64,000 bases of DNA from the NCBI RefSeq assembly GCF_019649055.1, contig NW_026570363.1, positions 1 through 64,000 on the forward strand, given 5' to 3'. The stretch comes from Paramacrobiotus metropolitanus. Taxonomy: Eukaryota > Tardigrada > Eutardigrada > Parachela > Macrobiotidae. The notes below the pieces were generated by a model. That model had not been told where the DNA came from, ran no database searches, and saw only the letters and a program-made list of their open reading frames with translations. The position numbers and the translations under genes are program-made. Positions within the stretch are counted from its first letter, which is position 1. Every line of letters starts with the position of its first letter. This document shows positions 16,075-38,050 of the stretch, in pieces.

Positions 16075-16099
16075 CTAGAAACGCGTAGGTGATAAGGAA

Positions 16100-17059: not shown

Positions 17060-17364
17060 ACTGATAAAGAAATCGCAGTTTGACTGTTAAAAAAAGTATG
17101 CGGAAATTAGAGCGGAAAGATAAATGGTTTCTGCACATGCAGATATTACATTGTGCCCGCTGTTTTGGACAATAGCGTTGATTCTGCTTGTAAATAGTTG
17201 TCTTCGTCCAATTTTAAAATTTATTGATAAAATCGAATAATAACATGTCACAACGTGCTCGTATTCCATCAGATCAGTCATTGGTGAAAAGCCTGACCTT
17301 GGCAGAAAAGATCGGAATCCCTTTTTATTAGTTTCCAAAGTACCGGTGGATTCTTTGCGGTGAG

Positions 17365-17450
17365 GACAGGTGCTGCTTGCTCTTGCTATCCGTATGGCTT
17401 TCAGAAGTGCCGCTGGTGCGAATTCGGTGATACCCGTGTTCCAATGGGCC
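17365..17450 (+). pseudogene. third Cys-peptide exon, degenerate
   Basis: The frame after an AG at about 17364 reads ACSCYPYGFQKCRWCEFG, resembling the CGCPLGFLCRR core of the neighbouring peptide. The last 45 bp are present at 42389-42436. It is interrupted by the repeat block starting at 17450 and has no signal-peptide exon nearby. Confidence 0.4.
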
Positions 17451-19192: not shown

Positions 19193-19480
19193 ATGTATCG
19201 TCGAGCGCTGCAAACATCATGGTCGGAAGATTGCGCACAAATACTGTCGGCTCTCAAGGACCTCGACACCACCGCTTGCTCCGACAGCGAACTGGAGCAG
19301 TTAGCTACCGCTTGTTTGGCCGCTGCGGAACGGGAGCGTGCCGTACACAAAGTCCTAACAACCACGGCATACTATACGTACGATATCTCCCCCAAACACC
19401 TGGCATTCATTCAACAATCGCAGGATGCCGTCAAAGAGCGGTTCCTGGAATTCTGTCAACGCATTACGGTGAGAACATGA

Positions 19481-19815
19481 TATAAGCGTGGACCTGATGA
19501 AGGTTCACGCGTAGGAACAGAATTAACGGAATTCTGCCTACCAAACAGATCTGGCAATGCTATACAGCGCCTACGCTATGGAAAGCGAGAAATGGCGTGA
19601 TTGCTAGAACTTTATGACAACACTAAATTCGTAAGAATTTCCATGTGGACAACTCCGCATTGCTGACTGCAGCAAGCGTGAAAAATGCGCACGTAGCCGC
19701 CACATGATGCGGGTGCGCGCAGAACACCATGCTTTCGCCACGCGTAAGGCGGGCGCGCTATGAACACGCAACAGACTGCCAAGCGAGGGTGTACGCATGT
19801 ACGCCTGCGCTCACA
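19481..19815 (-). repeat. 3' LTR (left copy)
   Basis: 335 bp, matching 37716-38050 with one visible mismatch. Begins TATAAGCGTGG and ends CGCTCACA on the plus strand. Confidence 0.92.
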
Positions 19816-21139
19816 TGCCTCTGGGAGGGAGGCTGAGCTCCGTCGAAGCAGAATCCACGTCCAATTCCTTGGGATCCTTGACGGCTCGTCTGTGCGATTA
19901 ATAAAACATCGAGATTTAATCTCCCTTTAACATCACAAATTCCAATTACATGTGTGAATAAAGAGATCTCGGAACAAAAGTAAAAACAGTAAAAAAATAT
20001 CAACAGAATTCATTATCAAAACGACTAGGATCCTCCGACTCCTAAAGGTCACTGGGTCCTGTCAACCGTAATCCGCTTTGGTCCATTCCGCTTTTTTGAG
20101 CAATCTTTATCATCACAATGAGAGATCCGCTTCTTAGGAATAGGTGCGTATCAAGTACGACTTCCGAATACTGCTGCTTCATCTTTGGATAATTCACGTA
20201 TCAAGTACGACTTCTGGTAAGGTCATTCTCTTTTTCTCGATGACTCTCTTGAGCAGTGAAGTTCTCAAAGGTCATCCCATTCTCTTTGATGTGCGACTCG
20301 TTTGGGCCGTGACGATCCCAAAAGGTCATCCATTTTTCCATAATGAGTTCCGTATTAAAGGTCATGGAGGAACTTAGCCGATTTTTGGCTTCCAAGCAAT
20401 TCTGCTTGCCTCCCTTGCAAAGGTCATCATTCTCTTCAACCACTTTCTTCGGTCGCACATCCTTTTCTTTTCCTTATAGTGCAAATTGACGCGCACTTTT
20501 CTTCTTTCCTTACCAGGTTCGAGGGCCGGTTAACGCCGTAACTCCTCTTTCTTCTGAGGCCGGTTATCGCCGTAACCTCAACATCTGAAAGTTTTACTCC
20601 TATTTTCTTGAACTCTTTCTCTTTTTCACCCTTGTGGCTTCTGTCATTCCGCGAGTGTGCCGACTCAGTAGGCCGCAACTACACTCTAAAGGTGACGTTT
20701 TAAATGTAATGAGGAAGGCCGGTTAGCGCCGTTACTCTTCCTGCTTCGAGGGCCGGATGACCTCCGTAACTCCCCATATTTCGGATCGCCTTGATCCTCT
20801 GCAACAAAACTCTGAAAACAATAGAAACACAAACGATATGACAGTTCAACAAGTTATGTCTCCTTCGCCCTGATACTGTACCTTTATCACCATTCTCGTG
20901 CTGCCGACTGATGGCCGTAACTAGCACATCAGCGATGCCCTAAAGGTCATCACTGATCATTTGAACCATTGTCGCGGTTCCGATCGAAACGTCGTCTTTC
21001 TTTTTCATTACGATCAGACGTTCGATCTCAAGGTTCCCTTTCCCTCTCTTGCAGCTCGTCTCCTTCGCTCCGGCTGCAGGTAGCACTGTGCCGATTTCGG
21101 TCACCTCTGCGCTGAATGCAGATCAAATGTTTTCTTGCG
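19816..21139 (-). other. retrotransposon 3' non-coding region
   Basis: No gene. It carries seven AAGGTCA motifs (20044-20945) and six GCCG..GTAACT hairpins (20521-20927). The polypurine tract expected just before the 3' LTR is weak on the minus strand. Confidence 0.6.
20521..20927. repeat. six hairpins with GCCG...GCCGTAACT loop
   Basis: Clear stems at 20555-20580 (TGAGG/CCTCA), 20653-20686 (GAGTGT/ACACTC), 20712-20742 (AGGAAG/CTTCCT) and 20898-20927 (GTGCT/AGCAC). Two further copies (20521-20547 and 20748-20774) have 3 bp stems. Confidence 0.8.
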
Positions 21140-22105
21140 TCAACCATCCTTACTTTTTAAGTCCCGTGACCTTTCTCGTGGATGATTGGATGACCTTTCG
21201 TCTACGCGTGACCTTTCTGATTCTCGTGACCTTTTTCGAGAATGATCGAATGACCTTTCGTAAACGCGTGACCTTCCATTTCTGTCGGCTGACCTTTTTT
21301 TCGAGGATGATTTCGGTCGTTTGAACTCGTCTCTCTTGAAACTGCTAAAGGTCTCCGTCATTTCTTTTTCTTGCGTACAGAACTTGCGCATTTCCTCGAC
21401 TTTGTCTTCGATCACAATTTTGGTGACCTGCGACCATCGGCTCCCTTTCGTCAGGTTGACCTTTTCTTGCAGGAATATCGTATGTTCCTCTTTCGTTAGT
21501 GAGAGTGGATCCTTGAGGATGATATCCAATTGCTGGATAAGTGATTCGCGGATTATCACCTCCTCTACCTCTTGTTTATTCAATATCGCGTCCGAAACGG
21601 GTACTGCAAGTCCCGCATGACCTTTAGCTGCATTGGCTAAACCCTTCTCTGCCGCAGCTTTTTCTCTTTCTTCCAAGCGCTTTTTCTGCATCGTTCTTGC
21701 TGTGTCTTTTTTAAACTTCTTTCTGAACGCATCCGCTTCCGCAGTTCTCGGAGGTTCAAGAGTGACATCCCATCCAGGTCTGCGTCCTACCCACATTCGG
21801 TATTTATCCTCCAAGATCACTCTATCTTCGGGCGATAGTTTTAGCCACGTTTTTCTTCTGACCAGGTGTCGAAATACATCTAAATTGCCTCTTCTTGCTT
21901 CGTGCGGTATTATCAGGAGCTGATTTGGCATCGGCACGGCCACCACGCATTCCCAGCAAGGGAATCGTTCACTTGAAAGAATGTTGTTGCGCTTGCAATC
22001 CGGACAATCCTCGTTGTAATTTGTCAACGGGTCGCCGGTGTCCTTTTTGATCGAAGGTCTTTGTCCCTTCTCTGCCTTCTGATGAGGTTGGCTCCGTTCA
22101 GCCAT
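21140..22105 (-). CDS. accessory 3' ORF of the retrotransposon
   Basis: A 321-codon frame in the position of env, but with no signal peptide or membrane segment. It has CPDCKRNNILSSERFPCWEC (CX2C...CX2C, possibly zinc-binding). The middle is helical and charged, and the tail is Arg-Ser rich (SRKRSRESERSR), RS-like or nuclear. A DNA- or RNA-binding accessory protein is conceivable. The RS tail coincides with a dense row of AAAGGTCA copies (21166-21300). Confidence 0.6.
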   Translation of the reverse strand: MAERSQPHQKAEKGQRPSIKKDTGDPLTNYNEDCPDCKRNNILSSERFPCWECVVAVPMPNQLLIIPHEARRGNLDVFRHLVRRKTWLKLSPEDRVILEDKYRMWVGRRPGWDVTLEPPRTAEADAFRKKFKKDTARTMQKKRLEEREKAAAEKGLANAAKGHAGLAVPVSDAILNKQEVEEVIIRESLIQQLDIILKDPLSLTKEEHTIFLQEKVNLTKGSRWSQVTKIVIEDKVEEMRKFCTQEKEMTETFSSFKRDEFKRPKSSSKKRSADRNGRSRVYERSFDHSRKRSRESERSRVDERSSNHPRERSRDLKSKDG

Positions 22106-22934
22106 TCTGACCTTTCAACCTGCAATCTCAACAATTGTAAGTCCCGTGACCTTTTACTGATTTCATTTTCCAACGTCTATCTTTAAGCCTATGATAACAA
22201 GGCTATTCAGTGCTGAGCTGAAACTTTTCGCTGCTCTTTGATGATGACCTTTGTCATCCTTCTTTGACTGAACCATTTTCATCTGTATGGGTGACCTTTC
22301 CCATCTTAGCCCATTCGCTAAGTATTTTAGCCCCTTCGCTAATTTGACTCTTCTTGCAGAGTGTGGTTCGAAAGTAAGTCACGCTCTGCGCTTTCATTCT
22401 CATTTCTGATTCGCGTTAGCTTCATCTTGTGTGGTGGACCTTCCTCCCACACTTTGCTTCTTGCTGATGTATGGTGACCTTTCTCTGCTTCATCAGCACC
22501 ATGACATTTCGGTCCTCTTTTGCTTCTGAATGAGTGCTACGTCTTTTTCCATCAAAGTCTTTCAAAATAGGCGCTTCTTCTTCTTGCTTGAGCACGGGTG
22601 ACCTTCCCCCCGCTGCAATTTCTGCTGACCTTTAGCTGCCAGCTTTCCGGATAAAATCTAATGACCTTTTTCTTCCAACGTTTTGGCTAAAGTCTGATGA
22701 CCTTTCTGCCTCGATCGCTTTTTAAACCTTTTCTCCTTAACTGCTCAGTACCATTCTCTCATGAGCAACTTTCAGCGAAGTCAATAATTCCTTCCTCTGT
22801 ATCCTTTAGCTCGGGTGACCTTCTGCCCCGGCTGAGCTTCCCGCTGAATTCTGATGACCTTTAAGTGTTTCACTCGCTCTTTGATCCTTCCGTTCCCTTT
22901 CGTCTTGCGCCAATCGTTCATGAGCGATTTTCAT
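22106..22934 (-). other. non-coding stretch between integrase and accessory ORF
   Basis: No protein frame. About a dozen TGACCTT motifs, plus CTTAGC/GCTAAG and TTAGC/GCTAA hairpins at 22305-22342 and the TGGTTCGAAAGT hairpin at 22356-22389. Confidence 0.6.
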
Positions 22935-25406
22935 TCAACGGCGTGATCGGAAATGACTTCGATTAGCGGGTTTATTTCTGATGACCTTTATGCCGTCCCA
23001 ACTTCCAGTCTTAATATCATAAACTCCTATAAGCCTGATTTTCGGGTTTATTTGTTTTCGTCCTTTAGTTATCCGATCAAGTAATGCTTTGTCGGCTTCG
23101 TCTTCGTCTTGGACTTCTCCTCTCAGAATCTGTTCTGGAGTCGGCTTCGGAGTTTTCTTCATTTTCTTGACCTTTCGCTTCTCAATTTCGTTCGCGATCC
23201 GTTGGCCAAGTTGGTCGGCTTTTTCTTTGACGGCTTTTATTTGTTCCGCTCTTGAGAGGTCATCTTTGACGCTGGTAGCAGAACATGGTTCGAAAGTATC
23301 TTGAGGTTTACGCTCTGCTACTCTGCGAGCAGGCTCAACCATTTTCGCTCTTGAAAGGTCATCCCTAATGTTAGTAGCGGAGCGTGGTTCGAAAGTAGGC
23401 TCCACTTGAGATCCATGCTCTGTGCTTTCTTTATCCTCATTTCGGTGTGACCTTTCATTTTGCTCAATCGTGGTCAAGTTCCCCGCTTCTTGATTAAGCT
23501 TCATCGTGACTGGCGTCTCAAAGTCTTTAATCTCTTTCTTCTGTCGTCCTCTCTTTTTCTTAACTGGCTCTTCCGCCTCTTTTGGCTCTTCTGCCTCTTT
23601 TGGCTCTTCTGCCTCTTCTGGCTCTTCTGCCAAATCAGGTACAGAGCGTGGTTCGGAAGTATGCTGACGACTACGCTCTGCTTCATCTTGACCTTTCTCA
23701 ATTATCTCCGAAGCTGCCCTTTCAGCTTGACCTTTCTGAACCGGTAACGGTGGATGCCACGGTTTCAGACGATCCACCGAAACGACTCGTAGGTCCGGTT
23801 CTTTCACCGCATCTTGCTCGATGACCTCGACTTCGTTCGGTCTCGGAAAACTGAGAATTTTCCACACTTTGTCATATTTATTCTTGAAGTCGGATTGGTT
23901 TTCCTTCTTTCCTTGCTTTGTATCTTTCGGGAGTCTAATTAAGACTCGATCTCCGACTTTGAATTGCGGCTCTGACTTCTTCTTGTTGTAGATTTCCGCG
24001 TGCTTTTCGTAAGCATCTTTGATGTTGCACTTCGCCACTTCTTCTGAAAAGGTCAAGTTCCTTTTCATGGTTTCGACCCATTCGTCTGGTGCACCGTAGT
24101 CGTCAGGAACGTTCGTCTTCGTCACTACGTCTTCTGGCATGGTCATTTCTCTCCCGTGAAGCATGTAGTACGCTGAGTACCCCGTCGTTGCATGTACTGC
24201 ACGGTTCATTGCCGATATGACGTAGGGAAGATACTTGTTGAACTTCCTTTCATTTCCCGCTTTCAGGTACTGCGACAATCCATCACTGATGGTCTGCATC
24301 TGCCTTTCCACCTGTCCTTGACCTTCAGGATGGTATGCTGTTCCAAACGTGTGTTTGATTTTGAACACGTTGGTGACCTTTTTCAGTACTTCTGCGGTGA
24401 AATGCCTTCCGCGATCCGTATGGAGAATATGTGGCGCTCCGTGCACCAGAATTACGTGCTTCACAAAGATCTTTGCGAATTCCTTTGCAGTAGCTGTTTT
24501 CATTGGCTCCGCTATGACATACTTCGTCAGCTGGTCGATGAAGACCGCGATGTATTTGTATCCTCTTTTCTTCGTTGGAAGTAGGGGTCCTTTCAGATCC
24601 GCATAGACTCTGAAGAATGGATGTCCGACTTTGATCTCTTGGAGCTTTCCAGGCGGACACTTCCTTGGTGTCTTTATGAACTGACATCCTTGACACGCTG
24701 TAATGTAATTCTTGACATCCGTACTCATACGGTCCCAGTAATACCTGAGCCGGATCGCGGTCAGCGTCTTTTCGAAACCAAGGTGACCTGCTGCTTTTTC
24801 ATCATGCAGTGCATGGATGATTGCCCTTCTCATTTGCAGCGGTACCACATATGTCCTTTCCAGTCTTCCTTTCTGGTCTTTGACGCGATACAGTATGCCG
24901 TTCCATAACTGGTAATGCGTCTCAAACTTTGACCTTTTGTCTGCGTCTTGCAGGTGCTCCAATTCATCGATGATCATTGCCAAGTGCGGATCTTTTAGCT
25001 GCTTATTCCGCAACTGCAAATTCGTATCATCTTCTTCTTCTTCGTCTCCTTGGAGGTTGACGATGCGGACTACTGCCGTGCTGAGTTCGTTCCAATCTTT
25101 GATGACCTTGCATCTCGGAAGAGGCTTGTGACCTTTCTCGATTTTCTTTGAGAATCTCAGCAATCTGATGGGACACTCTTCCGGAATGTATTCGGAGAGA
25201 ATTTCTGCTTCGCGAAGGTCATTCTGGTCTACCATTTTCTGACCGTCTTTCGTGACCTTTCCATCTTTTCGTTCGGAAGCTTCTTTTCTCACTCTGTTGA
25301 CCTTTATCTTGGTAGCGGAGCGGGGTTCGAAAGTAAGACGACGACTACGCTCTGCTTCATTTATGCTCGAGCGCATGTCTCCGCTTTTCTTTTTCTTCCG
25401 ACACAA
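22935..25406 (-). CDS. integrase of the retrotransposon with long repetitive tail
   Basis: An 823-codon frame. HHCC zinc finger: HALHDEKAAGH and CQGCQ. Catalytic DDE core: VYADLKGP, HTDRGRHF and HPEGQGQVER. DNA-binding C-terminal region: FKVGDRVLIRLP and KVWKILSFPRP. Roughly 280 further residues are Glu/Lys-rich and hold EAEEP repeats and four copies of the EPRSA word, each encoded by the GTGGTTCGAAAGT hairpin motif. Long integrase tails exist in some gypsy elements, but this one seems to be built from the motif families that fill the element. Confidence 0.9.
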   Translation of the reverse strand: MCRKKKKSGDMRSSINEAERSRRLTFEPRSATKIKVNRVRKEASERKDGKVTKDGQKMVDQNDLREAEILSEYIPEECPIRLLRFSKKIEKGHKPLPRCKVIKDWNELSTAVVRIVNLQGDEEEEDDTNLQLRNKQLKDPHLAMIIDELEHLQDADKRSKFETHYQLWNGILYRVKDQKGRLERTYVVPLQMRRAIIHALHDEKAAGHLGFEKTLTAIRLRYYWDRMSTDVKNYITACQGCQFIKTPRKCPPGKLQEIKVGHPFFRVYADLKGPLLPTKKRGYKYIAVFIDQLTKYVIAEPMKTATAKEFAKIFVKHVILVHGAPHILHTDRGRHFTAEVLKKVTNVFKIKHTFGTAYHPEGQGQVERQMQTISDGLSQYLKAGNERKFNKYLPYVISAMNRAVHATTGYSAYYMLHGREMTMPEDVVTKTNVPDDYGAPDEWVETMKRNLTFSEEVAKCNIKDAYEKHAEIYNKKKSEPQFKVGDRVLIRLPKDTKQGKKENQSDFKNKYDKVWKILSFPRPNEVEVIEQDAVKEPDLRVVSVDRLKPWHPPLPVQKGQAERAASEIIEKGQDEAERSRQHTSEPRSVPDLAEEPEEAEEPKEAEEPKEAEEPVKKKRGRQKKEIKDFETPVTMKLNQEAGNLTTIEQNERSHRNEDKESTEHGSQVEPTFEPRSATNIRDDLSRAKMVEPARRVAERKPQDTFEPCSATSVKDDLSRAEQIKAVKEKADQLGQRIANEIEKRKVKKMKKTPKPTPEQILRGEVQDEDEADKALLDRITKGRKQINPKIRLIGVYDIKTGSWDGIKVIRNKPANRSHFRSRR

Positions 25407-25720
25407 CCCTTCTCATGTCGGCTTTCAGCCGTTCTTCCCTTTCTTCGGCTAATTGTACGAAAAGTTGCCAAACTTCAATCGGAGGTTCTTCTCTGTTGAG
25501 TTCGTTCTTGTAATCTTCGAAGTTTGGGATTTCATCATACTCTTCTTCGTTGCAAGTAGGACCTTCAATTGGCGCTCTTGAAAGGGCATCTGCGTTGTCG
25601 CAGTATTTGCCCGGCTTGTATTCGATCTTGAATCGGTGACCTTGAAGTGCCAATGCCCATCTTGTCAATCTTGGAAGTTCATACATGATTTGTTCGACTC
25701 CGATCTTAAGAGGTTCGTCA
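25357..25720 (-). CDS. end of RNase H and tether
   Basis: The frame after the change reads LPRLTRWALALQGH and KPGKYCDNADALSRAP, the standard end of gypsy RNase H, then an acidic linker. It ends in a stop at 25357 with another frame change to the integrase frame near 25395. Confidence 0.8.
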
Positions 25721-27648
25721 AAGCTTTGTGATCCGTTCTCACTGTGAATTCGGAGTAGTCGATGTACGACTTGAACTTTCTGACGGCGAAAACTACCGCC
25801 AGGCATTCCCATTCTGTTACTCCGTAATTCTTTTCCGCTCCATGCAAAACGCGGCTTGCGTATGCAATGGGATGTCCATCTTGGGACAAGATCGCACCTA
25901 GCCCTTCCTTTGATGCGTCGCACTCGATCACTGTCGGCTTTGTCGGATCGAACTTCTTCAATACTGGATCCTTGCATAGCGCTTCTTTAAGGTCATTGAA
26001 TTCTTGGTCATGGATTGCTGACCAATCTCTTTTGATGTTCTTGTCATGTCTTAGCAATTCGTAAAGATGCGCCGTCTTTTGCGCGTATCCAAGGATGAAC
26101 TTTCGGTAATAGTTTGCTAATCCGAGGAATGACCTCAACTGCCGTTCAGTTGTCGGTTTCTTTTGGCCATTAACTGCCATGACCTTTTCGGGATCCATTT
26201 TAATACCATTCTCGCTGAGGATATGCCCCAGGAATCCCATTTCGCGCATGCCAAATTCGCATTTCGTCGGCTTAATTGTGAAGCCTGCGTCGACCAAACT
26301 TTGAAGGACATTCCTTAAGTTCTGCATGAAGATCTCCCAGGTCTTTCCTGCGAAGATTACATCGTCGATATAGCCGAAAACGCATCCCATTCTCTTTGCG
26401 TTCGACAAGACTTTATCCATACAAAGTTGAAAGGTCGCAGGTCCATTGCAGACTCCAAAAGGCATTCTTTTGAAACGGAACATTCCGTCCTGCGTGACGA
26501 AAGTTGTCTTATCTTTCGAGGCTGGATCCATTGGGATCTGCCAGAAGCCACTTTGTAAGTCCATCTTGCCGTAGTACTTGTTTCCCGCGCATGCGTCAAG
26601 CAGTTCGTCTGGGTTCGGCAGTGGATAGTTGTTCTTTTTCGTCAGCTTGTTCAGCAAAATGTAATTGACGCAGAATCTTGTTCCCATAGTTCCGTCGCCA
26701 TTCTTCTTTGCGGCGAGTACGACCGGAAAACTCCATTCCGCATCGGATGGTTCAATGACATCTTGCTGTAGCATCTCTTCGATGTGCTTTGTGATGAATT
26801 CACGACCTTTCCAACTTGTTCTTGCTGGATTGCATTTAACCGAGTTTGGCATCGGCTGTGTCAATAGTGTGCGTTACCCCTTTGACATCGCCGTACGGTT
26901 TCTTTGACGTGGGGAGAACTTTCCAAAACTCCCAAAATGCATTTCGCACGTCATTTTTCTGTTCTTCAGTTAGGTCTGGTCCCAACTTTAATCTTTCAAT
27001 GATGTCGTTCAGTTCTTCTTTCGTCTTTGCGTCCACTTCAGGATCTTCAAGTATGTTTTTCACGACGGTAGCCGAGTTGACCTTTACATTCTCTAGGTGT
27101 TCGTAATGTTCTACGTAACCGAGAAATTGGCCCTTCCTTACGGTCTTTCGGCTTTTGCTTCGGTTTTCGATAATAATTTCGAATCGAGTGCCGTTATGGT
27201 CCGTGACTCCCGTTCTCGGTTGGACTTCATTATCCTTTTGAGGAATTGCTGTATACATCAGCTTCTGATTCCGTGGCACATGAACGCCCATCTTGACCTT
27301 TACGCGTGTGCCAAGGTTTGGTCTCAGCTTAACTCGTTGGTCGCTGTAAACCTTGATCGCTCCTTCTGGGATTCTTGCTTTCTGCACTTTAATTCTTCGA
27401 ACAATGATCTCTTTCTCTTGTTGTTCGTTCTTTTCATCGTCTTCGTCGAGGTCCAGCAGATCTTCTTGATCTGAAAGGTCACTCACTCCAGAATCTTCAG
27501 AAGTGGTCGAGTTATCGCTCGTGCTCGAGAATTCCGAGTCGGATTCGCTGCTGTGGTTAGCTTCAAGCTCTTGACCTTTGCTTTTTCTCGATTGGTCGCT
27601 CATCGACGCCTTCGTCTTCACTTTCTGTTGAAAGGTCATCGCTTTCAT
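25665..27648 (-). CDS. reverse transcriptase and RNase H of the retrotransposon
   Basis: Frame 27648-26836 (Ser/Asp-rich, then a pre-RT domain ending HTIDTADAKL) changes to frame 26864-25665 near 26850. The RT is complete: CVNYILLNKL, MDLQSGFWQIPMD, FKRMPFGVCNGPATFQ, catalytic YIDDVIF, GFLGHILSENG, and the connection LRSFLGLANYYRKFI. RNase H has ECDASKEGLGAIL, EWECLAVVFAVRKF and RTDHKAL. The frame changes again after TDHKALTNLL (about 25720). Ty3/gypsy (Metaviridae-type) by motif set. Confidence 0.92.
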
Positions 27649-28790
27649 CCTTGGAAGCGCTAAGTTTTTTCACTTTTCGTTTTTCGGGCAGAGGTTTGTC
27701 CGTTTCCTTGGACTTTCGTCCGTTTCGTGCTGCTATCCTCGGATTTGTTCGTGTTGCACGAATCCTTGCTCGTGACCTATCCCTTTCATCGTCTTCCGAG
27801 CTATCATCTGCTTGAGCGGTATTCTGTGACCTTTTTGCTTTTCCAACTGGCGGTCCTTCCTCGCCAGTTTCAGGTGACCTTTCGTCAACTTTCGAACTGA
27901 CCTTTCTGGCTCCTCTTCCAGCATCGCGTTTAGTGACCTTTCGTTCTTCTCGGTTGGTGGCCCTTCCTCACCGTTACCGAGTGACCTTTGTAGTGAAGCC
28001 ACTAACGACGCTGCTTTCTTCTCTTGCGGCGACATTTGAGCCTTTTTTGCCTCTGTTACCGGGATTCCGTTTTCCTTATCCCGAAACGCCTGGTTCAGTT
28101 CCTTGATCATCTGAGCCAACTCATACGCCGTGTGCGTTGGTTCTCTTCTTCGGCGCCTGTGCTGTTTTCTTGAGCAGCACTTGTGCTGACCTCTTGTTCT
28201 TTTTCTTTGGTTTCTTCGGCGCTTGTGCCGTTATCTTTGTTCTTTTCTTCTTCGGCGCTTGTGCCGTTTTCTTTTTCAGCGCTTGTGCCATGACCTTTCG
28301 GTCTCTTATCGCCGATAAAGACGCAATTTGCCATCAGTTCTTCTGTAGTCCAGTCATTGTTCGGTACCGTCTCATACATGCACCAAGTATCTCCGCCTCT
28401 TTCGGGATACTCCACTCCATCTGGATCTGGTGCAAAGGTCACCTTCTTTTTCTCGGATAGCCAAATAATCCAAGTTCGCGTCTTTTCGCGTGACCTTTAA
28501 TTCTGGAATTTCTCCTGTGAATATCGGTACTTCTTCGAGGATTTTGCCCCATTGTTTATTCCATTCTCGTAAGCTTCCCTTTTGAGGCAGGCCTGGTAAA
28601 GGTCAAATAATTCGTACACTACTGTGCCGAGTCCAATTGGGAAAATGATTGCTCGTCCTTGACCTTTCCATAGATAATTAACTCTGAATTCCCAAAATAA
28701 GTCAACTCTCGCTTGCTCCCATATTTCGTTCTCTTCCATTGCTCGTCGCCTTTCCTGTCGAGCTTTGTAATCGGGTTTGTATACCACGGG
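27540..28790 (-). CDS. retrotransposon linker region, broken frames
   Basis: Several overlapping frames between protease and RT. One around 28780-28660 reads PWYTNPITKLDRKGDEQW. Another, 28787-28497, has LFWEFRVNYLWKGQG. A TAA at 28499-28497 lies in the same frame as the next ORF (28442-28107), which contains repeated NGTSAEEE words. The frame then changes at about 28119 and twice at 27730-27560. No domain recognised; low-complexity acidic and basic. Confidence 0.5.
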
Positions 28791-31700
28791 TCGCTTTTAT
28801 CCGCCTTTTCGGGAATGAAGTTGTCCGCTTCTTGCTGCCAATGATGGAGCCACTTCCTCTGGAGATGATGTAGTTCTTAACTACCGATAACCATTCTCGA
28901 TAACATTGCCAAAGGTAAGTTGCTTTTGACAGTTCCGGCATGGGAAGTGTTCTCATAATCGACTTGACCTCTATTTCTTCTTGTCTTTTATGACGCGCAA
29001 TTGCTGCATTGCATTTCGGCCATTCCGAAAGGTCATCTTGTGTCATTTCTTGCATGCATTTTGCACATCTTTCTTGAGGTCGCGCTATCGAAAGGTCATC
29101 GCTGTCGTGCCAATCGTGATGGCAAGAGGTTGCTCTCTTCCGCAGTCCATTCTCTTGGTTTGCGGAAATGACGCGATTGTTCCCTTCCGGCATCCGTTGT
29201 CTCGGTTCAGGACGGACGATAACTCGCTTATCCGCTTCTCCGGAATCGGTATCTGTCCATTCGTCATCTTTTTCGATTTCGATTACGCTGTTATCTGATG
29301 ATATTTCGATGACTTCGATTTCTTCATCTGCAGAGCGTGGTTCGGAAGTAAGACGACGACTACGCTCTGCTGCATCGTTGCGCGCTCGCGTGTCTCGGCC
29401 TTTCACCCGCCCTCTTGCTTTATCACGTGGTTCGAAAGTGTGCTGAGCACCATGCTCTGTTTTCCTTGCATCCAGTTGCTTTCTGGCTTGATCTCGTATT
29501 TCTGAGAATAATGCTCTTTCGTCGCTGTTCATCAGTCCTGGCTCTGTCCTGGGCCCAACCATTTTCGTGCCCAGTGCCTCTGGTACTGGGAGTAGCCTTG
29601 ACCACTCCATTCCTGGCACTAGCGACTGTTTCTTTGCAATCAGTGCTTCTGCTTGCATTATCTTGATTTGTTCCATCGTTGGTGACCTTTGCTTTCCTTT
29701 AGACTTCGGTGACCTTCTTGCTTCTTTCAGTATTTTCAATCCCTGTGCCTCTGGTACTGGGATTAGATTTTCACCATTCTCATTTTGTTCCTTATCATTC
29801 GATCCCTGTGCCTCTGGTACTGGGATAGCCGTTTGCCCCGAATTATTTCTTTGTTGAAGTTCGGTGACCTTTCCTGCATTGACTTTTGCAGAGGATTTCG
29901 GCTCGTCATCTTCGGCTTCAGTTTCTCGTTCTTCCTCGTCGTCCCCGTCTATCAGGATGAATTTCTTTGCGAGGAAGTCGAATCCCAGTAGGACTTGGAC
30001 ATCGTCTGACGCTGGTCTGACGTAGAACGAGTGTTGACTCGTTTTCCTTCTTAAGGTCACTGAGTTACGCAGTAGTGCGTTACTTCGAAGCCTGACGTTC
30101 CGCTGATCCCTTTGATCATCACCTTCTTTTTCGGTGGTAGTCTTACAGTCTGGAGGCCATTCCTTTCACAGAACTGTTGACAAATCAAAGACGTCTCTGC
30201 GCCAGTGTCAAGCATCGCCATGACCTTTTTATTTCCAATTTTGACTTCATGTGTATAAGCTTCGATCCGTTTCGGTAAGTTTCCATCTTCGAGTTTCAAG
30301 ACTCTTATTCGACACTTGACTGGGATTGGTGCAGCATGCTTGCTCTCTATCAGACCTTTTGAGCTCCAACGATCTATCCGTTTCGGTACGTCGGGTCGCA
30401 CATCTGAGAACCTTTCGATCCTTTTTGACTTCGGTAAGATATTCGCTTGCTCCTTCGCAGCGTTTTCTTTACCCGTGACCTTTGCCACTTCGCACGTCAA
30501 ACCCTTCTCTTGTGCGTTCTCGTGACCTTTTATCACTTGCGCAATAACTTCGTATTGTGACTTTTCATTGCGCACGTCTTTAGACGGCTTATCTTGCAAC
30601 TTTGCCATTATCTCTTGCGTAATTTCATCCGCAAAGGTCATCTCGTCATCTTCGCTCTTTTTTTCTGGTGACCTTTCGTACACAATCATCTTATGGTCGT
30701 TTTCTTTCATCCAATCGGTAATTTTCTTCGCAATTTCGTTATTCGTGCGAGTTGGATCGATTTGAGATGACAATCCGTCAGTTCTTGGCGGTGACCTTTC
30801 GTTGTCATTCCGGATTGCTTCTGTCATGTCATACGACTTCTCCTTCTGCGGAGTTTGCGCTAAGTCCGGTGACCTTTCCGGTCTTGACATGAAAAATCCA
30901 CCATTTAGTGATCTTTGTAAAGGTACTTTCTCACCATACTGAGGCGGTAATTCACCCTTCTCAATCCGCTCTCGAAACTGACGGTTATTTTCGTCACATT
31001 GGTTCTTCTCTTTCCAGTACTCTTGAACTTTCGGTTGTGAAGCTTTTACCATTTCTTCGAGATGCTTTCTCATCCGCCAGTCTTGTTTCTCTCTTTCTTC
31101 CCAGTAAGCTTCTCTGGGAATTCTCACATCTTGCGGTGACCTTTGTGGCGGAGGAACTGGTTTCCACATACCATGTCGTCCATTTGGTCTGTAAGCCACT
31201 TTTTGCCACTCCATCTTTTGTTGTAGAGTGTTTGCCTCATCGAGAGAGTCATCTGAGACTTGCTGTGCCCCTTCGCTCTGTTTCACTGTTTGCTGCGCCA
31301 TTCGCAGAGTCAAGTTACTTTCTTGACCTTTCGGTTCATCGGCGACTTCACCGTGACCTTTCTCTTTCAGTGACTCTTGAGTCTGCTGCACTGGCAATCT
31401 CTCGTGACCTTTCACTTCTTCAACTCTCGCTTGAGGTGACCTTTCGGTCTCTTGCGCTCCTTGCGCAGTCACGGCCCTTCTGTGATCTTCCTCGGCAGCT
31501 CTTGCTTGAAATACTTTTGCCATCTGCTCAAGGAATTTCGGTCTATCTGGACCGCCTTCGTGCGTTCGTTGCACGGTTACGGTCATTCCGTCAACTTCAA
31601 ACGTATTTTCGACGAACTTTCGGAATCTCGCGTGATGTGTTTCATCATCCTCTCCGCTTGAGATTTCCGCTTGCGTCTTTCGCAGAGTAGCTTCACTCTT

Positions 31701-32140
31701 CCTCGCGGTTGCTTTCCGCGGTGACCTTTGGGTCTGCTGTCCTTGCAGCGTCACGTTACTTTCGTGACCTTTGCTCGCAGTTACTTTCTGCGGTGACCTT
31801 TGGGTCTGCTGTCCTTGCACCGCCACGTTACTTTCGTGACTTTCTTGATTTGCAGTTACTTTCTGCTGTCCCGGATGCAGAGTTGAGGCCCTTCCGTCAA
31901 CCCTGTTCCCCGCAGTTACTTTCTGCGGTGACCTTTCGGTCGGCCCCGGCTGAGTCAAGTTACTTTCTTGACTCCCCGCAGTTACTTTCTGCGGTGACCT
32001 TTCGGTCAAATTCTTCCGTCCTTGCGGCAATCTTTTAACACCCTTCTCTTGACCTTTACGAGCCCCTTCGCTCGATTTCGAGTTACTTTCTCGAATCCTC
32101 GGATTTCTTTTCCGGGTCATTGCGTTACTTTCGCAGCATC
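28702..32140 (-). CDS. retrotransposon protease region, frames d and e
   Basis: Frame d (about 32240-30057) is a 687-plus codon frame, low-complexity in its first half with repeated ERSPQKVTA and ESN words created by DNA motifs. It ends with the aspartic protease active site MLDTGAETSLI. The protease C-terminal motif LLGFDFL lies in frame e (30060-28702), one base back; the switch is at 30060, inside the protease fold. Frame e continues with acidic, repeated PVPEAQG units and EPRSA units. An intact protease therefore needs a -1 shift here, or this copy carries an indel. Confidence 0.75.
29569..29826. repeat. three hairpins with GTGCCTCTGGTACT loop
   Basis: 29569-29589 (CCCAGT/ACTGGG), 29738-29764 (AATCCC/GGGATT) and 29802-29826 (ATCCC/GGGAT). 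They encode the repeated PVPEAQG peptide. Confidence 0.8.
31309..32135. repeat. array of eleven hairpins with constant TTACTTT loop
   Basis: Positions: 31309-31327, 31704-31720 (loop TTGCTTT), 31750-31768, 31776-31792, 31824-31838, 31852-31866, 31910-31928, 31952-31974, 31976-31994, 32077-32095, 32121-32135. Stems of 4-8 bp are all perfect but different (GTCAAG, GTCACG, CGCAG, GAGTCAAG, TTCGAG, TGCG and others). They lie within the protease-side coding frame. Confidence 0.92.
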
Positions 32141-32233
32141 CCTTTCTCGCTGCGGTCCTTGCCTGCAGCGGAGCACCTTGCTCCTCTATATCCGGTGGTT
32201 TCGGTTCCGGACGATCAGTAGGCTCACCGGCGC

Positions 32234-34822
32234 CTACTGACCTTGAACGTTTCCCTGGGCCATTCCCTGAACCGGCGCACCTTGCGCCTGACCGGCACCA
32301 TTCGCCGGGGCGAAATTAAAGCCTCCGCCTTGCTGACCGAAACCGTTCTGGTTCCCACCGACGAAGCCGCCTTGCTGCCCGCCGAAGTCGCCCTGGCCAC
32401 CTTGACCGGCGAAATTGCCCTGGCCACCTTGACCGGCAAAATTCTGGCCACCTTGACCACCATTATTCCACTGGCCTCCTTGACCAGCACCGTTCCATTG
32501 GCCACCTTGACCACCACCATTCCATTGGCCACCGCCGTAATTTCCGCGATTGCCGCCGCGGCCTCTGCCTCTACCTCGGAAGCCGCCTCTAACCGGGCCA
32601 TATCCGCCGTTTCCTCCGCCTTGGCCACCTTGACCGGCGAAGTTGCCTTGGCCTCCGAAGTTATCCTGGCCGCCTTGACCTCCGTTGTTCCACTGGCCAC
32701 CTTGACCAGCGAAATTCCCTTGGCCGCCAAAATTGCCCTGGCCTCCTTGATTGTTGTAGTTGGCCTGGCCACCTTGACCGGCGAAGTTCCCTTGGCCACC
32801 CTGACCAGCATACCGTCCGCCTTGGCGTGATTGTGGCACGTAACCATTTGCCATTGCGTTGCGCCATCCGCCATGGTTGTTACGCAGCATCAACCATTCT
32901 TCATACACGACCCGGTTGGGGTTCTGATTCCACGGTGTTCCCGCGAACGAACACGCTTGTGTGTAGTGGTTGCCGTACATGCAGTTCTGGCATGTCAGTG
33001 CGTTATTGGCCACCCATCCGTCGATCATGGTGAACAGGCGCTCTACTCGCGACCCGTATCGTGGTCCTTGATTTCCTTGTCCACGGTTCGGTCGGAAGTT
33101 TCCTTGATTTCCTCCGCCACCGTTGAATCCCTGGCCAGAAAAGCCCGGGTTCGTCTGAGCCATTCCTTGACCACCGAGCCCTCCATTCAGGGCATTTCTC
33201 TGCACGTTTCCTTGTGGATTCTGTTTCGGCCTTGCTGCCTGCTGAGCTGATGCTTGGATCGCCGCGATCGCAGGCTTGGTTACTTCTTGGACGGCCGTTT
33301 GGATCGCCGCGATCGTCGCGTACGATACCTGACCTTCATTTCGACCGTTACCAAAGGTCATCTCTTGAGTGCCTAACGGCGGGAATTCCGTATTGTATCC
33401 TGACGCCTGCGCCGAGCACGACTGGTTCTGTCGCCCATTCGCGACTTCTTCGATCTGGCCCGATCGGATGATCACGCAATCATCTTGGACTCGATTGCCT
33501 CTCGTGACCTTATACTTTTCTTCGCCAGTCGACCAGGTGCGGAAGAATTCCTTGATATCCATTGGGTTATGGAATTTCTGTGCTCGGAGTGCCTTATAAA
33601 GGTCACTGTCATTCTTACACCCTTGAATCAGGAATCCGATAGCCTGCTTCTCAGTTATGATCCGTTTCGACTTGAAGCGCATGATCGCCTGATAGAACTG
33701 GTCAAGCGTTTCTTTACCAGCCTCGAACTTTCTCGTCATCGCTTCTCTTAAGGCGTTGACCCCTTCGTCACGATCGCCAAAATGTTCTTTGAACTTTGTC
33801 ATCCATTCATCGACGGTTAACTCTTCCGCCTCTTCTTCGTCATCGATTTCTCTTTCCGCGTCAAACCATGCCTTCGCGTCCCCTTTGACTGCGTTGGCGA
33901 CTTCCAGCATCATTGCTGCATCCGAAAGGTCATACGTCTTCTGAGTCTCCTTGACCTGACGGATCCAACCAAGTAGAGCTTCTCGGTTGCCGTTGTAGTC
34001 GATCAACGCGGATTTCCGGGCCATGGCTCTCATGTAACCTCTGAATTCCCGTTCTTTGCGACGGAGTCGCTGTGCCTCAGCATGGTATTCCGCGCGGTAT
34101 TCTCTTTCTCGCCTCTCCTCTTCACGAGCTACCCTTTCCTGCTCGTTTTGGCGAACTCGTGGATCTTCATGATTATCTGGTTAATGGTCAGATTTGTAGA
34201 CGATTGTTTCCCTCGGTCCTGTTTCTTGTTGCCGAGGATTGACCCCACCGGTCGGTCCTGAGTGCCCCTTCGCCAACTCAGTATCGTCGGTGACCTTTTC
34301 AGCTTTGACCTTATCTTTATCATGGCCGTCGCCTCGACCAGTCCCCGTCTTTAAGGGAGCTTGGAAATGAAAGCTACCTTCGACGGTGTGGACTTCACCG
34401 TATCCAGGGGGCGGAGATTCGATTCGTTCTGGCTGTTGGATCTCAGTTTCCTTCTGTTTTGCCGAGCGTTTGAGAGTCTTGATTTCTTCGTCTCTTTGTT
34501 TAATTGTTTCTTGTAGCTGTCTCACGGTTTCATTTGCGTCCTTCCGCAGTTTCTCGTAATCGTTGTTTGCTTCGGTGACCTTTCTCATTTGCTCGAGGAT
34601 TGTACTGGCCCTGTTATCAAGGGTCTTATCGAGATCCATTTTCGCTGCTTTTAGGATCTCAGCTTCTGCTTCCAATCGTGTAATACGATCCGCTCTGTCT
34701 GCGAGGGTCCTTCCTCTCGCTTGGCACTCTTCCTCAACTGCTTTCAGTTGGACTTTTAGTTCCGTAATTTTATCATCCTTTTCCATTACGGAAGTAGCCA
34801 ATCCGACTGATTCATCGCTCAA
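32234..34822 (-). CDS. retrotransposon gag-like ORF (b+c) with an in-frame TAA
   Basis: Frame b (34822-34181, 213 codons, coiled coil) ends in TAA at 34183-34181. The same frame is then open to 32234. The part from about 34100 contains a retrotransposon gag core (ALLGWIRQV, AKAWFDAER, WMTKFKEHFGDRD, LDQFYQAIMRF). It is followed by a zinc knuckle CQNCMYGNHYTQAC (CX2CX4HX4C) and a long Gly-Gln-Asn-rich tail of GGQGN repeats (about 32830-32270). Capsid-like particle formation and RNA binding are the expected roles. One stop codon separates the coiled coil from the capsid core: a mutation in this copy or a readthrough arrangement. Confidence 0.75.
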
Positions 34823-36432
34823 TTTGGCGATCTCTTCTTTTGTTTTTCATTTTCTGTCTTTCCTTCTTTATTCACGACTTCTAGCACAGTGACCCGTTCG
34901 TCACACCGTTGTGCTTCCTTCAACCACTTCTTTGCTTCTTTCTTTTGGTTGTCGATTTCGTCATTGAGTCGCTTGATTTCAGTTTTTGTTATTTCAGCCA
35001 GTTCAAGCAGTTCCTTTGCTGCTTGATCTCTCTGGCTTTCCGCTTCGTTGTGTTTCCTTTTCATCTCTTTTAATTCTGTTTGTAACGTGTTGACAAGGTC
35101 TTCGCGTAATTTAAGGTCATCCTTCAGTTTCGAGATGTCAGCCGTCAAGCTGGTGACCTTTCCGGTGAACTTCGTCGCATTTGCTAGAGATTCGTCCCGT
35201 TTTTTCTCGGCCTCCTTGACCTTTGACTGTAAAAGGTCATGCTCCTTTTTCAATTCTGCTATTTCCTGTGACCTTTCAGCTGCTTCCTCGGACAGACCGT
35301 AGTTTTCTGCGGTGAGTATACCTTCCGCGTCTCGATCTTCTACCATTTTCCTCAGATCCTCTGCAGCTTTTTTCTGACCTTCAAATCTGACTTTCCATTG
35401 TTGCGCTTCATCTTCGAACGTGACCTTTTCTTGTTCCATCACGCTCAATCTGGCTTCGACTTCAAAGGTTTTGTTGCGTTGGTCCCGTATCGCAGCGAAA
35501 GCTTGCGCTTCCTTTTCGTCGAGGAGTTGTTCTAGTTCCTTGACGCGCTGCTTTAATCCGTTCAATACAGACGTTTTTGGTGATGATGACCTTTGTTCCC
35601 GGTCGTCGGCTCTTCCTGACGCCGTTCCTTCAAAGGTCTCTTCTAACTTGTCCTGGAGGGTCGTTTCAAACATCCCTTTCGTTAAGTTGGCCTCCTTCAT
35701 TGCCGTATGGAAAGACGTCCGTATCGTCGTTTCGTCCTCATCGTCAGTGCAAAACTTGTCACTTGACGTGGGGCTGGTACCATTCTCTTCCAGCTGTTCT
35801 TGTAAGAACAGTGAGTTTCCCGAAAGGTCATCCTGTTTGACCTTTCCCTCGTCGATCAGCTCGTTGCTGCTGACGGCGCCACCACCTTCGGTGACCTTTT
35901 GGCTGACTTCGGTATTTCCCTTCTCAGTTTGATCCGCGTTTTCCTCCTTGACCTTTTCGGCCGACCGTGCCATTCCTCCGGTCTCGGCCTTCTTGTCATC
36001 TTTGTTCTGTCCATCTGAAGCCGTTCTCTCTTCGGTGACCTTTGCTTGGTCTACCGTGTTATCTCCGACATGTCGCTCGGAGCTTTTTCCATTTCCGTCA
36101 CTCGAGCTTTCGTTTTGAGTTTCCCTCAGGGCCGTTTGATATGTGGCCTCTGAGCCTCTGGTGTCCTTCCTCCCAAAGGTCTTTTGAGCTCGAGTTGCTC
36201 TTTCATGTTCCACGGGCCGTGTGTACGGCTTTAGTTTCCGTTCGTAAGGGTTTTCTAACCCCTGAGACCGTTCTCTCTGACTGCTTGATGAGACTGGTTC
36301 ATTACCGTCTGTGTCTTGGTCCATATCTTTGGCTTCCGTTGATGATCGGATAACTTGGACGATGCTAATAATGTTTCTGACACGTGTGTTAGTTTTAGCT
36401 ACGTAAGCCCCTTTACACGTAAACAGAAACAA
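34819..36432 (-). CDS. retrotransposon ORF a: long coiled-coil protein
   Basis: A 537-codon frame, highly charged, rich in Lys, Glu and Gln with heptad-like runs (e.g. LKEMKRKHNEAESQRDQ), so mainly coiled coil over its C-terminal half. The N-terminal half is Ser/Thr/Asp-rich. The start is uncertain; the first residues resemble a signal or random sequence. It ends in TGA at 34821-34819, overlapping the next frame by one base (-1). It lies where gag or a pre-gag ORF sits. No enzyme motif. Confidence 0.6.
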   Translation of the reverse strand: MFLFTCKGAYVAKTNTRVRNIISIVQVIRSSTEAKDMDQDTDGNEPVSSSSQRERSQGLENPYERKLKPYTRPVEHERATRAQKTFGRKDTRGSEATYQTALRETQNESSSDGNGKSSERHVGDNTVDQAKVTEERTASDGQNKDDKKAETGGMARSAEKVKEENADQTEKGNTEVSQKVTEGGGAVSSNELIDEGKVKQDDLSGNSLFLQEQLEENGTSPTSSDKFCTDDEDETTIRTSFHTAMKEANLTKGMFETTLQDKLEETFEGTASGRADDREQRSSSPKTSVLNGLKQRVKELEQLLDEKEAQAFAAIRDQRNKTFEVEARLSVMEQEKVTFEDEAQQWKVRFEGQKKAAEDLRKMVEDRDAEGILTAENYGLSEEAAERSQEIAELKKEHDLLQSKVKEAEKKRDESLANATKFTGKVTSLTADISKLKDDLKLREDLVNTLQTELKEMKRKHNEAESQRDQAAKELLELAEITKTEIKRLNDEIDNQKKEAKKWLKEAQRCDERVTVLEVVNKEGKTENEKQKKRSPN

Positions 36433-37715
36433 GTGCTGTCCTAAAGGTCACCTTCCCTTCTGTATCAGCTCAACTTTATTAAAGGTCACTCTGCCTCCAA
36501 AAGAGCTGAGTCTTTTCTAAAGGTCACTCCCCTTAATAAGATTAAACTTATTTTCCGCTGTTTCAGCCTAATAGCTTACTCCGTCACGTTAAAGGTCACT
36601 TTCTCTTCAGAACTTATTCCATTTAAAGGTCACGATCGATTTTGGTCAAAAACGTTCAACCTGAGAAAATTTTTGGATTTTACTGAGAAATCAACTCAGA
36701 TTTCCTCAAAATAAACGTTATTTATTCAGCTTTCAACTTTTAATAAAGGTCATCATTCTCGTCGAAAATTTTTTTAGTAAAGGTCAACTTCTCGTCAGTC
36801 AGTTGAGAAAATTTTCTTAGCTAGCTACGTCACGATCTTGAGCGTCGTGCGCAAGAACTCCGCCTCCTTACAAAATCTGAGCTTTTAATTGGCTGATTTC
36901 CTAGCTAACTTTAGCTACGCTGCTGCGCCAATCGCAGTGCGAATAACCGACCAATCAGAAGCGTTGTTATTCTGTTTATAAGGCAGAGTGACGTCACGAC
37001 CAAAACCGAAAATTTTTGCTAGCGCGCCGTGCGCAAAAGTACCGCCTACTTCTCTGCTCAGCTCAGAACCGACGAATGAAAATTGGAGATTTTACCTATC
37101 GACCAATGGTAAAATTAATAACCGAAATTCTGACCTGTTCGTCTCCCAAGTCTAGAAATCGATCCTGCGTCCTTCCGCGAATCCTCCTGATGCTCCTCCA
37201 GCGATTTAGCTGACTTCTCCTGGGCCAGCCGACACCCCTTCTGCTTCGTATCAGCAGGACGCAGCGGTGCGTCGACCAAAAGACTTGCTGGCTGCGGGTC
37301 TTCTGTCGCGCCTTGACGTTGGCAACGACAGGGGCGCTCGATCACCCTTTTGGGTGAGCGCGTATTATGTGTGCTCTCTACTGCAGTAGAGTAGCACCTG
37401 AAACTCCACACCCGCAGTCCAAAGTGGCTTGCCCACTCGTGCCCCCCTTCGGGCTTCTGCCTCTTCTGGCGATCTTTCTCGGCGCTTGTGCCCCTCCAGT
37501 CAAAGCTACGACAGTAGCCCTGACCGCGTCAGACTGATACAGTACACTCTACGCAGTAGAGATGCACCGTTTTCAAGTCTGCTGAGTGGATCCAAACGCT
37601 CCCTTCGCCACCAAACCGTACGCGAGCCCTTTCTCGCGGGAAAAATCCTCCACTCCTCGTCAGATGGACGGGAAAAACTCAGGGATTATCCTGGAGAACA
37701 CGACTCTTGCTACCA
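36433..37715 (-). other. retrotransposon 5' leader, about 1.3 kb
   Basis: No gene. It has seven AAAGGTCA copies at 36440-36790 and perfect small hairpins: CGCGAG/CTCGCG around CCCTTT (37621-37638), GCCC/GGGC around CCCTTC (37441-37454), TCACCC/GGGTGA around TTTT (37342-37357), and the palindrome CTACTGCAGTAG near 37380. The cluster nearest the primer site might be packaging or priming structure. Confidence 0.6.
37697..37715 (-). promoter_or_regulatory. putative tRNA primer-binding site
   Basis: Minus strand reads TGGTAGCAAGAGTCG immediately after the 5' LTR. TGG at the first position and placement are typical; the tRNA is not identified. Confidence 0.6.
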
Positions 37716-38050
37716 TATAAGCGTGGACCTGATGAAGGTTCACGCGTAGGAACAGAATTAACGGAATTCTGCCTACCAAACAGATCTGGCAATCCTATAC
37801 AGCGCCTACGCTATGGAAAGCGAGAAATGGCGTGATTGCTAGAACTTTATGACAACACTAAATTCGTAAGAATTTCCATGTGGACAACTCCGCATTGCTG
37901 ACTGCAGCAAGCGTGAAAAATGCGCACGTAGCCGCCACATGATGCGGGTGCGCGCAGAACACCATGCTTTCGCCACGCGTAAGGCGGGCGCGCTATGAAC
38001 ACGCAACAGACTGCCAAGCGAGGGTGTACGCATGTACGCCTGCGCTCACA
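37716..38050 (-). repeat. 5' LTR (right copy)
   Basis: Upstream LTR for the minus-strand coding region. The TSD ATGA follows at 38051-38054. Confidence 0.92.

Follow-up and report, generated by a model that had tools for sequence, protein, structure and literature searches.

A Ty3/gypsy-type LTR retrotransposon of 18.6 kb, on the minus strand of the 64-kb stretch of Paramacrobiotus metropolitanus DNA analysed here (the window), carries 96 copies of the octamer AAAGGTCA, and these octamers are under selection at the nucleotide level, coding sequence included. We read them as a dispersed array of about 100 putative binding sites, kept by selection, for which the likeliest binder would be a host monomeric nuclear receptor, NR4A first of all. 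Judged from sequence, this reading has, in our view, close to an even chance of being right.

Structure of the element

The earlier identification as a retrotransposon is borne out by an LTR pair differing at 1 of 335 positions, by ATGA flanking both ends (a short target-site duplication), and by Pfam matches in the sense order protease, reverse transcriptase (RT), RNase H and integrase, the protease matches lying near or just under the cut-offs (Table 1). Similarity hits suggest the Ty3/gypsy placement of the RT. A candidate tRNA primer-binding sequence starting with TGG runs from 37715, with TGGTAGC directly after the 5' LTR. Pfam searches gave weak matches, all below cut-off, for the pre-gag ORF and no match for the gag-like ORF, in which a CCHC-like knuckle can be seen by eye. 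Repeats encoding RSPQKVTA surround AAAGGTCA in the protease ORF. An Rfam scan of the whole window at the gathering threshold returned no match. GPCR matches had pointed to a nematode host, and an SL1 search found nothing, its controls being silent too; protein matches to P. metropolitanus ruled the nematode out. The interval 20044..36790, given in the first-pass annotation as the element, holds as the first-to-last span of the motif; the element itself extends from 19481 to 38050.

Table 1. Parts of the retrotransposon in window coordinates
Feature	Position	Strand	Basis
Entire LTR retrotransposon (Ty3/gypsy type)	19481..38050	-	LTR pair, ATGA at both flanks, RT/RNaseH/INT/protease
5' LTR, 335 bp, without AAAGGTCA	37716..38050	-	LTR comparison
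5' UTR; 7 AAAGGTCA, all antisense, 36443-36786, 34-120 bp apart	36433..37715	-	
Pre-gag ORF, coiled-coil-like, sense sites numerous	34819..36432	-	ORF list and sequence
Gag-like ORF, GQGG-rich tail; 3 sites, 3/3 antisense	32234..34033	-	
ORF ending in aspartyl protease; 17 sense sites and 1 antisense	30057..32120	-	Pfam, E 1.6e-5
Reverse transcriptase and RNase H	25665..26864	-	Pfam
Integrase ORF (H2C2, rve)	22935..25406	-	Pfam
3' accessory gene	20953..22105	-	Match to L069 915-aa protein
3' UTR; 6 AAAGGTCA at 20044, 20267, 20321, 20357, 20419, 20942, all antisense	19816..20952	-	
3' LTR, 335 bp, without AAAGGTCA	19481..19815	-	LTR comparison; first octamer of the window element at 20044
First-to-last extent of 96 AAAGGTCA octamers	20044..36786	both (69 sense, 27 antisense)	

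Number and arrangement of the octamers

An exact count gives 96 AAAGGTCA starting within 20044-36790, 27 on the plus and 69 on the minus strand, and 17 more AAGGTCA that are not part of a full octamer (113 together), in close agreement with the earlier figures of about 95 and about 18. Density in the element is one AAAGGTCA per 193 bp, and the other ~45 kb of the window hold a single one, at 7709. The enrichment over chance stands, although the expected number is not 0.5, as had been stated, but 1.08 under a first-order and 2.8 under a second-order Markov model. Single-mismatch variants of AAAGGTCA are about as frequent as expected, position 1 excepted, which gives the word a protein-like sharpness.

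Both orientations are present, as previously noted, but they are not simply mixed: UTR octamers in the window are antisense throughout (13/13, 7 in the 5' and 6 in the 3' UTR), in part because of tandem duplication, and coding sites are mostly sense, in line with the codon composition. The listed ORFs hold 69 of the 96 octamers, 57 sense and 12 antisense. Sense sites are spread 13/25/19 over the reading frames; antisense sites use two frames (8 and 4), the third being empty because an octamer there would give a TGA stop. The three frames reported within one ORF were recovered in the protease ORF, which starts at 32120, as KV(T) at 30476-30483, KGH at 30523-30530 and (E)RS at 30669-30676. Among 93 distances between octamers there is no 10-11 bp signal of helical phasing; a 3-bp and a weaker 12-bp signal fit coding sequence and repeats.

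Selection on nucleotides

The first-pass annotation held that selection acts on the DNA and not on the peptide, and left room for codon-shuffled sequences to reach a similar count. In 2000 protein-preserving codon shuffles, the mean was 8.5 and the maximum 19 octamers, against 69 real ones in the listed ORFs. At conserved amino acids, the third codon base is identical in 31 of 33 cases inside the octamer versus 450 of 927 elsewhere, and seven additional third-codon-base comparisons agree in direction. This match at synonymous positions within the octamer shows that selection acts on nucleotides, as had been proposed; codon or peptide bias as the cause is ruled out by the shuffles together with synonymous-site conservation. 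At 72% DNA identity, 11 of 17 octamers remain unchanged, versus 8.5% of background octamers; a second comparison gave 18 of 23 versus 12.9%. The conserved footprint is about 8 bp, and flanking bases are not kept. Conservation extends to both orientations (antisense 10/12, sense 8/11), which points to a double-stranded-DNA-binding protein as the binder.

Copies and clusters elsewhere in the genome

Copies lacking the motif, a possibility raised earlier, did not turn up: all 30 sampled RT loci of the family, down to 72% DNA identity, carry 13-19 AAAGGTCA each in ~4.2 kb, and six comparison loci from other gypsy families carry 0-3. Two of these six hold 3 sites each, above expectation, and this counts against our main reading. 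In three other copies, the 5' UTR octamers are likewise antisense (39/39), and the 3' stretches of copy L054 that have no long open frames contain 7 sense and 5 antisense octamers. We left the 3' part of L050 out of the counts, as orientation reveals an adjoining inverted second element. The idea that the octamer is a spreading mini-unit applies to the 5' UTR, which in copies L051 and L053 (72%-identity group) consists of tandem 29-bp units that each contain one octamer, but not to the coding sites, which lie in unrelated sequence contexts where aligned copies differ mainly by substitutions.

The genome as a whole contains 42,562 AAAGGTCA sites. Five AAAGGTCA clusters were sampled on contig C1, and three are element DNA (L055-L057). 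The other two are unlike any element piece, L058 being low-copy (4 places) and L059 a minisatellite-like stretch; some AAAGGTCA clusters are therefore unexplained by this retrotransposon family, and we count these two against the main reading as well.

Identity of the binder

The proposed NR4A half-site identity is upheld, as AAAGGTCA is the exact NR4A monomer site (NBRE) in the available parts of two sources (PMC9022205, PMC9295971); the site for NR5A/FTZ-F1 is given in the available part of the first as (T/C)CAAGGTCA (PMC9022205). The element holds CAAGGTCA 3 times versus AAAGGTCA 96 times, so its word favours NR4A over NR5A/FTZ-F1. In the host, exons of an NR4A gene lie on contig C45 with CEGCKG and RTDSLKGRRGRLPTKPK, the expected P-box and A-box, which match the DNA-contact residues of NR4A. 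Among solved structures, one of these exons comes closest to NGFI-B, NR4A1 and NR4A2.

We propose that a host receptor, first of all the NR4A ortholog, would occupy sites along the body and in the 5' UTR array and, once bound, would keep the inserted element accessible and transcribed, through enhancer or anti-silencing activity, at the times and places at which that receptor is active. In the 5' UTR, sites would multiply through short tandem duplication, and coding sites would originate by point changes and then be held by selection. No octamer was found in the LTRs or in the first 0.9 kb downstream of the 5' LTR, which counts against the main reading, as a promoter-proximal enhancer would be expected to have its sites exactly there; so does the uniform antisense orientation of the window's UTR sites and of the 5' UTR sites in the three other copies, for which a symmetric enhancer has no need. 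More tentatively, and with distinctly less than even confidence, we suggest that the whole body, coding sequence included, might be a docking platform of about 100 NR4A-type sites held by purifying selection at synonymous positions; through a host receptor, possibly one induced by stress, the element would open, cluster or protect the chromatin it lies in.

Alternative readers of the word

The element could instead supply its own binder, a protein that binds AAAGGTCA across the element's copies and protects or marks them; the best candidate would be its ~915-aa 3' protein. The window copy retains a remnant of that ORF: against the 915-aa protein of L069, ORF 21140-22105 aligns with residues 4-307 and, in a different frame, 20953-21156 aligns with residues 848-915, the middle of the gene being missing. 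The ORF was recovered at at least 129 places in the genome, all 11 matches of the protein are in P. metropolitanus, and its CPDC..C..C start (two CxxC pairs) and basic, RS-rich middle are features that favour such a role, as does the 5' UTR array, which resembles the dense same-orientation tandem motif bound by VANC as described in the available part of its source (PMC5735166). Nevertheless, we consider a self-encoded binder, although the main rival, rather unlikely: the octamer has stayed the same even though divergence has brought the 3' proteins of the window group and the other group down to 34-40%, the word exactly equals a known host-receptor site, and nothing in the accessory protein exceeds the Pfam cut-off, known DNA-binding domains included. 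Less probable again is another host reader, be it ERR, NR5A, a receptor of the RXR/COUP type or a zinc finger unrelated to these; it might, for instance, silence the element or help to organise the nucleus. The host genome yields 63 zf-C4 exon matches, presumably including ERR-, NR5A-, RXR- and COUP-like DBDs, and the presence of ERR and NR5A, which we take to have similar half-sites, speaks against NR4A as the sole candidate. Against these readers stand the rarity of the CAAGGTCA word favoured by NR5A and the difficulty of explaining why silencer sites would be kept in a recently spread element.

A role in RNA, with AAAGGUCA in the genomic RNA or sense-antisense pairing serving packaging, dimerisation or export, seems very unlikely. 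The coding sites, mostly sense, could pair with the antisense UTR sites, but the element has no variants of the kind that G:U wobble would tolerate, AAAGGTTA among them (0 and 0), which makes RNA-RNA pairing improbable, and a single-stranded RNA motif is improbable because antisense sites are as well conserved as sense sites; codon shuffles, moreover, already produce more sense than antisense sites with no need for a role in RNA. That the octamers are a functionless by-product of repeat slippage or of codon or peptide bias is scarcely credible to us. The KGH, ERS and KV peptides do recur and the 5' UTR has its tandem array, but the codon shuffles, the use of three frames, synonymous-position conservation and the low counts in the six other gypsy loci all speak against it.

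Comparison with known systems

Drosophila gypsy carries about a dozen degenerate Su(Hw) insulator sites, confined to its 5' UTR. It, too, belongs to the Ty3/gypsy elements and has its sites for a host protein, there a zinc-finger protein, lined up downstream of the 5' LTR, whereas the present element has ~100 sharp sites across 16.7 kb, coding sequence included, and probably a different type of binder. Bacterial DNA uptake sequences also consist of one short word, dense, in both orientations and in several frames within genes. Unlike the octamers, they span whole bacterial genomes and serve DNA import, with no transposon or receptor involved.

The available part of PMC5735166 describes VANDAL DNA transposons of Arabidopsis, in which a short motif is read by the TE-encoded anti-silencing protein VANC. 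On that account, both systems have one TE family densely supplied with a short exact motif that is rare in other families, arranged partly as same-orientation tandem repeats and subject to turnover between copies (PMC5735166). VANDALs are plant DNA transposons, however, and ours is an animal LTR retrotransposon; their motif is mainly non-coding, whereas here 69 of 96 lie in listed ORFs in all three frames; and their word is read by a TE protein (PMC5735166), whereas the word here is a host nuclear-receptor site. Half-sites of the AGGTCA type are found in other retroelements, as in Alu DR2 elements, where nuclear-receptor sites were spread by a retroelement (PMC1785376), and in the HIV LTR, which carries AAAGGTCA bound by Nurr1/NR4A2 (PMC9295971). 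As the available parts of these sources describe them, each Alu or HIV copy has a single site or a few, placed in the promoter or the body (PMC1785376, PMC9295971), and they do not match the tardigrade element in site density or synonymous-position conservation.

Significance

If the docking-platform reading is right, the unusual size of the element and its low-complexity linker ORFs may partly be a scaffold for sites. Transposon binding sites are usually described as few and as located in LTRs or UTRs. Here, measurable selection maintains an exact 8-bp site for every 193 bp of the element, genes included, so that the same bases are selected for the protein that they encode and, presumably, for DNA binding. 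The family thus presents a natural experiment in transposon recruitment or evasion of host regulators, set in an animal phylum that tolerates stress.

Octamer abundance in the element and its relatives

The Ty3/gypsy-type retrotransposon of the window contains 96 exact occurrences of AAAGGTCA, an extended nuclear-receptor half-site (69 sense and 27 antisense relative to the element), against 1.08 expected from a first-order and 2.8 from a second-order Markov model, and the rest of the 64-kb window holds 1. It is the top octamer of the element by a wide margin, and the runners-up overlap it. The first-pass annotation had named two outcomes that would refute the enrichment as a property of the element, absence of the motif from other copies and a similar count in protein-preserving shuffles, and neither is seen. 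The listed ORFs carry 69 sites, whereas 2000 codon shuffles average 8.5 and never exceed 19. Per ~4.2 kb, 13 to 19 sites were present in 30 of 30 fetched reverse transcriptase (RT) loci (the best 30 of at least 104 matches, window copy included), which are between 98.7% and 71.9% identical in DNA to the window copy. Sense sites in the ORFs are spread over all three frames (13, 25, and 19); antisense sites (8 and 4) occupy the two frames without TGA. The sample comes from one genome and comprises pieces of the 30 RT loci, three additional 5' ends, and a small number of 3' fragments.

Other gypsy families differ clearly in site number, with 3, 3, 1, 0, 1, and 0 in six loci cut with the same flanks, hand-picked from 74 places and mostly having long open frames; their sum of 8 is above the Markov expectation of ~0.87. 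The two of these loci with 3 AAAGGTCA each (L070 and L071, another gypsy group with 51% protein identity) compare with ~0.15 expected, a surplus that could be a milder version of the same phenomenon or chance. On contig C1 of the assembly, two further clusters (L058:429-581 and L059:59-1078) show no similarity to the examined element pieces, the first being low-copy (4 places) and the second containing repeats around AAAGGTCATCCACCTTTCT. Genome-wide, AAAGGTCA occurs 42,562 times and its control, the octamer reversed but not complemented, 15,522 times; if the control represents background, the surplus of ~27,000 would correspond to about 280 complete elements.

Structure and surroundings of the element

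The two LTRs of the window copy, 335 bp each, have a single difference between them, and a TGG-starting, primer-site-like sequence (no tRNA compared) directly follows the 5' LTR. Protease, RT, RNase H, and integrase stand in Ty3/gypsy order, with additional ORFs upstream of gag, between protease and RT, and downstream of integrase. Here the pol region is split across several frames and the 3' accessory gene is without its middle portion; some other copies have a single open frame spanning RT, of up to 3,124 aa. The RT matches have 83-100% protein identity, and their count is a lower bound, 104 having been scored among 1701 first-look candidates. In copies of the 72%-identity group, L051, L052 (contig C162), and L068 (contig C103), two extra long ORFs (985 and 673 aa) lie between integrase and the 915-aa 3' ORF, and RT is ~8 kb away from that ORF, compared with 3.6 kb in the window copy; elements longer than 20 kb must therefore exist.

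Features of the window
Feature	Position	Strand	Remarks
LTR retrotransposon	19481-38050	minus	LTR pair, ATGA at both flanks, Pfam domains
Accessory ORF	21140-22105		part of the ~915-aa 3' protein
GCAGAGCGTGGTTCGAAAGTAAG-centred units (repeat groups D7, D11)	22356, 23272, 23635, 25309, 29324, 29414		second recurrent motif family of the element; 44-53-nt unit, 22356-29466
Degenerate 27-bp repeat	32349-32816		end of gag-like ORF; low-complexity, GQGGQ/N-rich peptide
Region with a 9-bp tandem array (about TTCTTAGGT)	17460-17973		array lies between the inverted arms
Inverted arms, TCTGAC-type repeats	17467-17553 and 17881-17967		87 nt each; 90% complementary
Mutually matching segments	16075-19474 and 40858-43234		left and right of the retrotransposon; 72-95%

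The left and right segments match as though the retrotransposon had inserted into one copy of a tandemly duplicated gene or repeat; the stretch 19192-19474 of the left segment stops at the insertion site.

Selection acts on the nucleotides of the octamer

Copies L009 and L022, with 72% identity, retain 11 of 17 octamers intact, compared to 8.5% of background octamers. Base identity is 0.84 within the motif, 0.52 across the 16 bases flanking it, and 0.68 elsewhere; the other seven copies compared with L009 show the same trend. A comparison of the 5' regions of the window copy and L049 gives 18 of 23 intact octamers, against 12.9% of background. Where copies L016 and L035 encode the same amino acid, the third codon base is identical at 31 of 33 positions inside the motif, with 16 expected from the same codons elsewhere, and at 450 of 927 outside it. 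Seven more such comparisons agree (from 16/19 versus 396/823 to 45/45 versus 752/1087); these have copies in common and do not count as independent. At 29 shared sites in two comparisons, flanking identity drops to 0.52-0.87, indicating a footprint of approximately the octamer itself.

Certain sites are confined to one subfamily; alignment column 3752 reads AAAGGACA in the window group and AAAGGTCA in 17 of 17 copies of the other group. Sites in the 5' UTR are gained in another way: in L051 (13 sites) and L053 (18 sites), a 29-bp unit containing a single octamer is repeated in tandem. Across four copies 46 of 46 5' UTR sites are antisense (window 7, L049 8, L051 13, L053 18), as are 6 of 6 in the window 3' UTR. 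Tandem duplication explains uniform orientation within an array but leaves over the shared orientation of both window UTRs. The antisense rule for UTRs is not universal, since L054 has 7 sense and 5 antisense sites in those 3' stretches that lack long open frames, part of which are perhaps decayed coding DNA.

Both orientations are conserved, with 8 of 11 sense and 10 of 12 antisense sites kept in the 5' region and 9 of 15 and 2 of 2 between L009 and L022. The sense bias of coding sites arises in codon shuffles as well (7.8 sense versus 0.7 antisense), and G:U-tolerated octamer variants are not enriched in the element. Together these observations fit a protein reading double-stranded DNA.

Candidate binding protein

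The monomer site of NR4A receptors is given as AAAGGTCA in PMC9022205 and PMC9295971, and that of NR5A as (T/C)CAAGGTCA in the former. As the element has 96 AAAGGTCA compared to 8 GAAGGTCA, 6 TAAGGTCA, and 3 CAAGGTCA, NR4A is the best-fitting predicted binder of the array. Among the 63 zf-C4 exon matches in the host genome are some that belong to an NR4A gene and carry CEGCKG and RTDSLKGRRGRLPTKPK; one of these exons has NGFI-B, NR4A1, and NR4A2 as its best solved relatives. Others encode ERR-, NR5A-, RXR-, and COUP-like domains. Alternatively, the element's own protein may read AAAGGTCA. The accessory 3' protein recurs at a minimum of 129 genome places, starts with two CxxC pairs, has no Pfam match above the cut-off, and is confined to P. 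metropolitanus in 11 of 11 protein matches (best 8000 candidates scored). Divergence between the two groups has brought it to 34-40%, with the octamer unchanged, which makes a private protein-motif pair less likely.

By title and abstract start, with most subscription papers and bioRxiv outside the scope, the literature gave no comparable description for AAAGGTCA, NBRE, or half-sites in retrotransposons or transposable elements (TEs), nor for NR4A in tardigrades, tardigrade LTR retrotransposons, or Paramacrobiotus retrotransposons; in the searchable text of a tardigrade TE paper (PMC11071193), Paramacrobiotus occurs 0 times and gypsy once. The nearest system known to us is VANDAL/VANC of Arabidopsis, in which a protein encoded by the TE recognizes a dense motif that includes tandem arrays (PMC5735166). 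The tardigrade element differs in being a retrotransposon, in having a majority of its sites in coding DNA, and in that its word is a host-receptor site. We infer that the receptor, predicted to be NR4A, would be bound throughout the element body as well as at its 5' UTR array, where it may keep an inserted copy open and transcribed or shield it from silencing.
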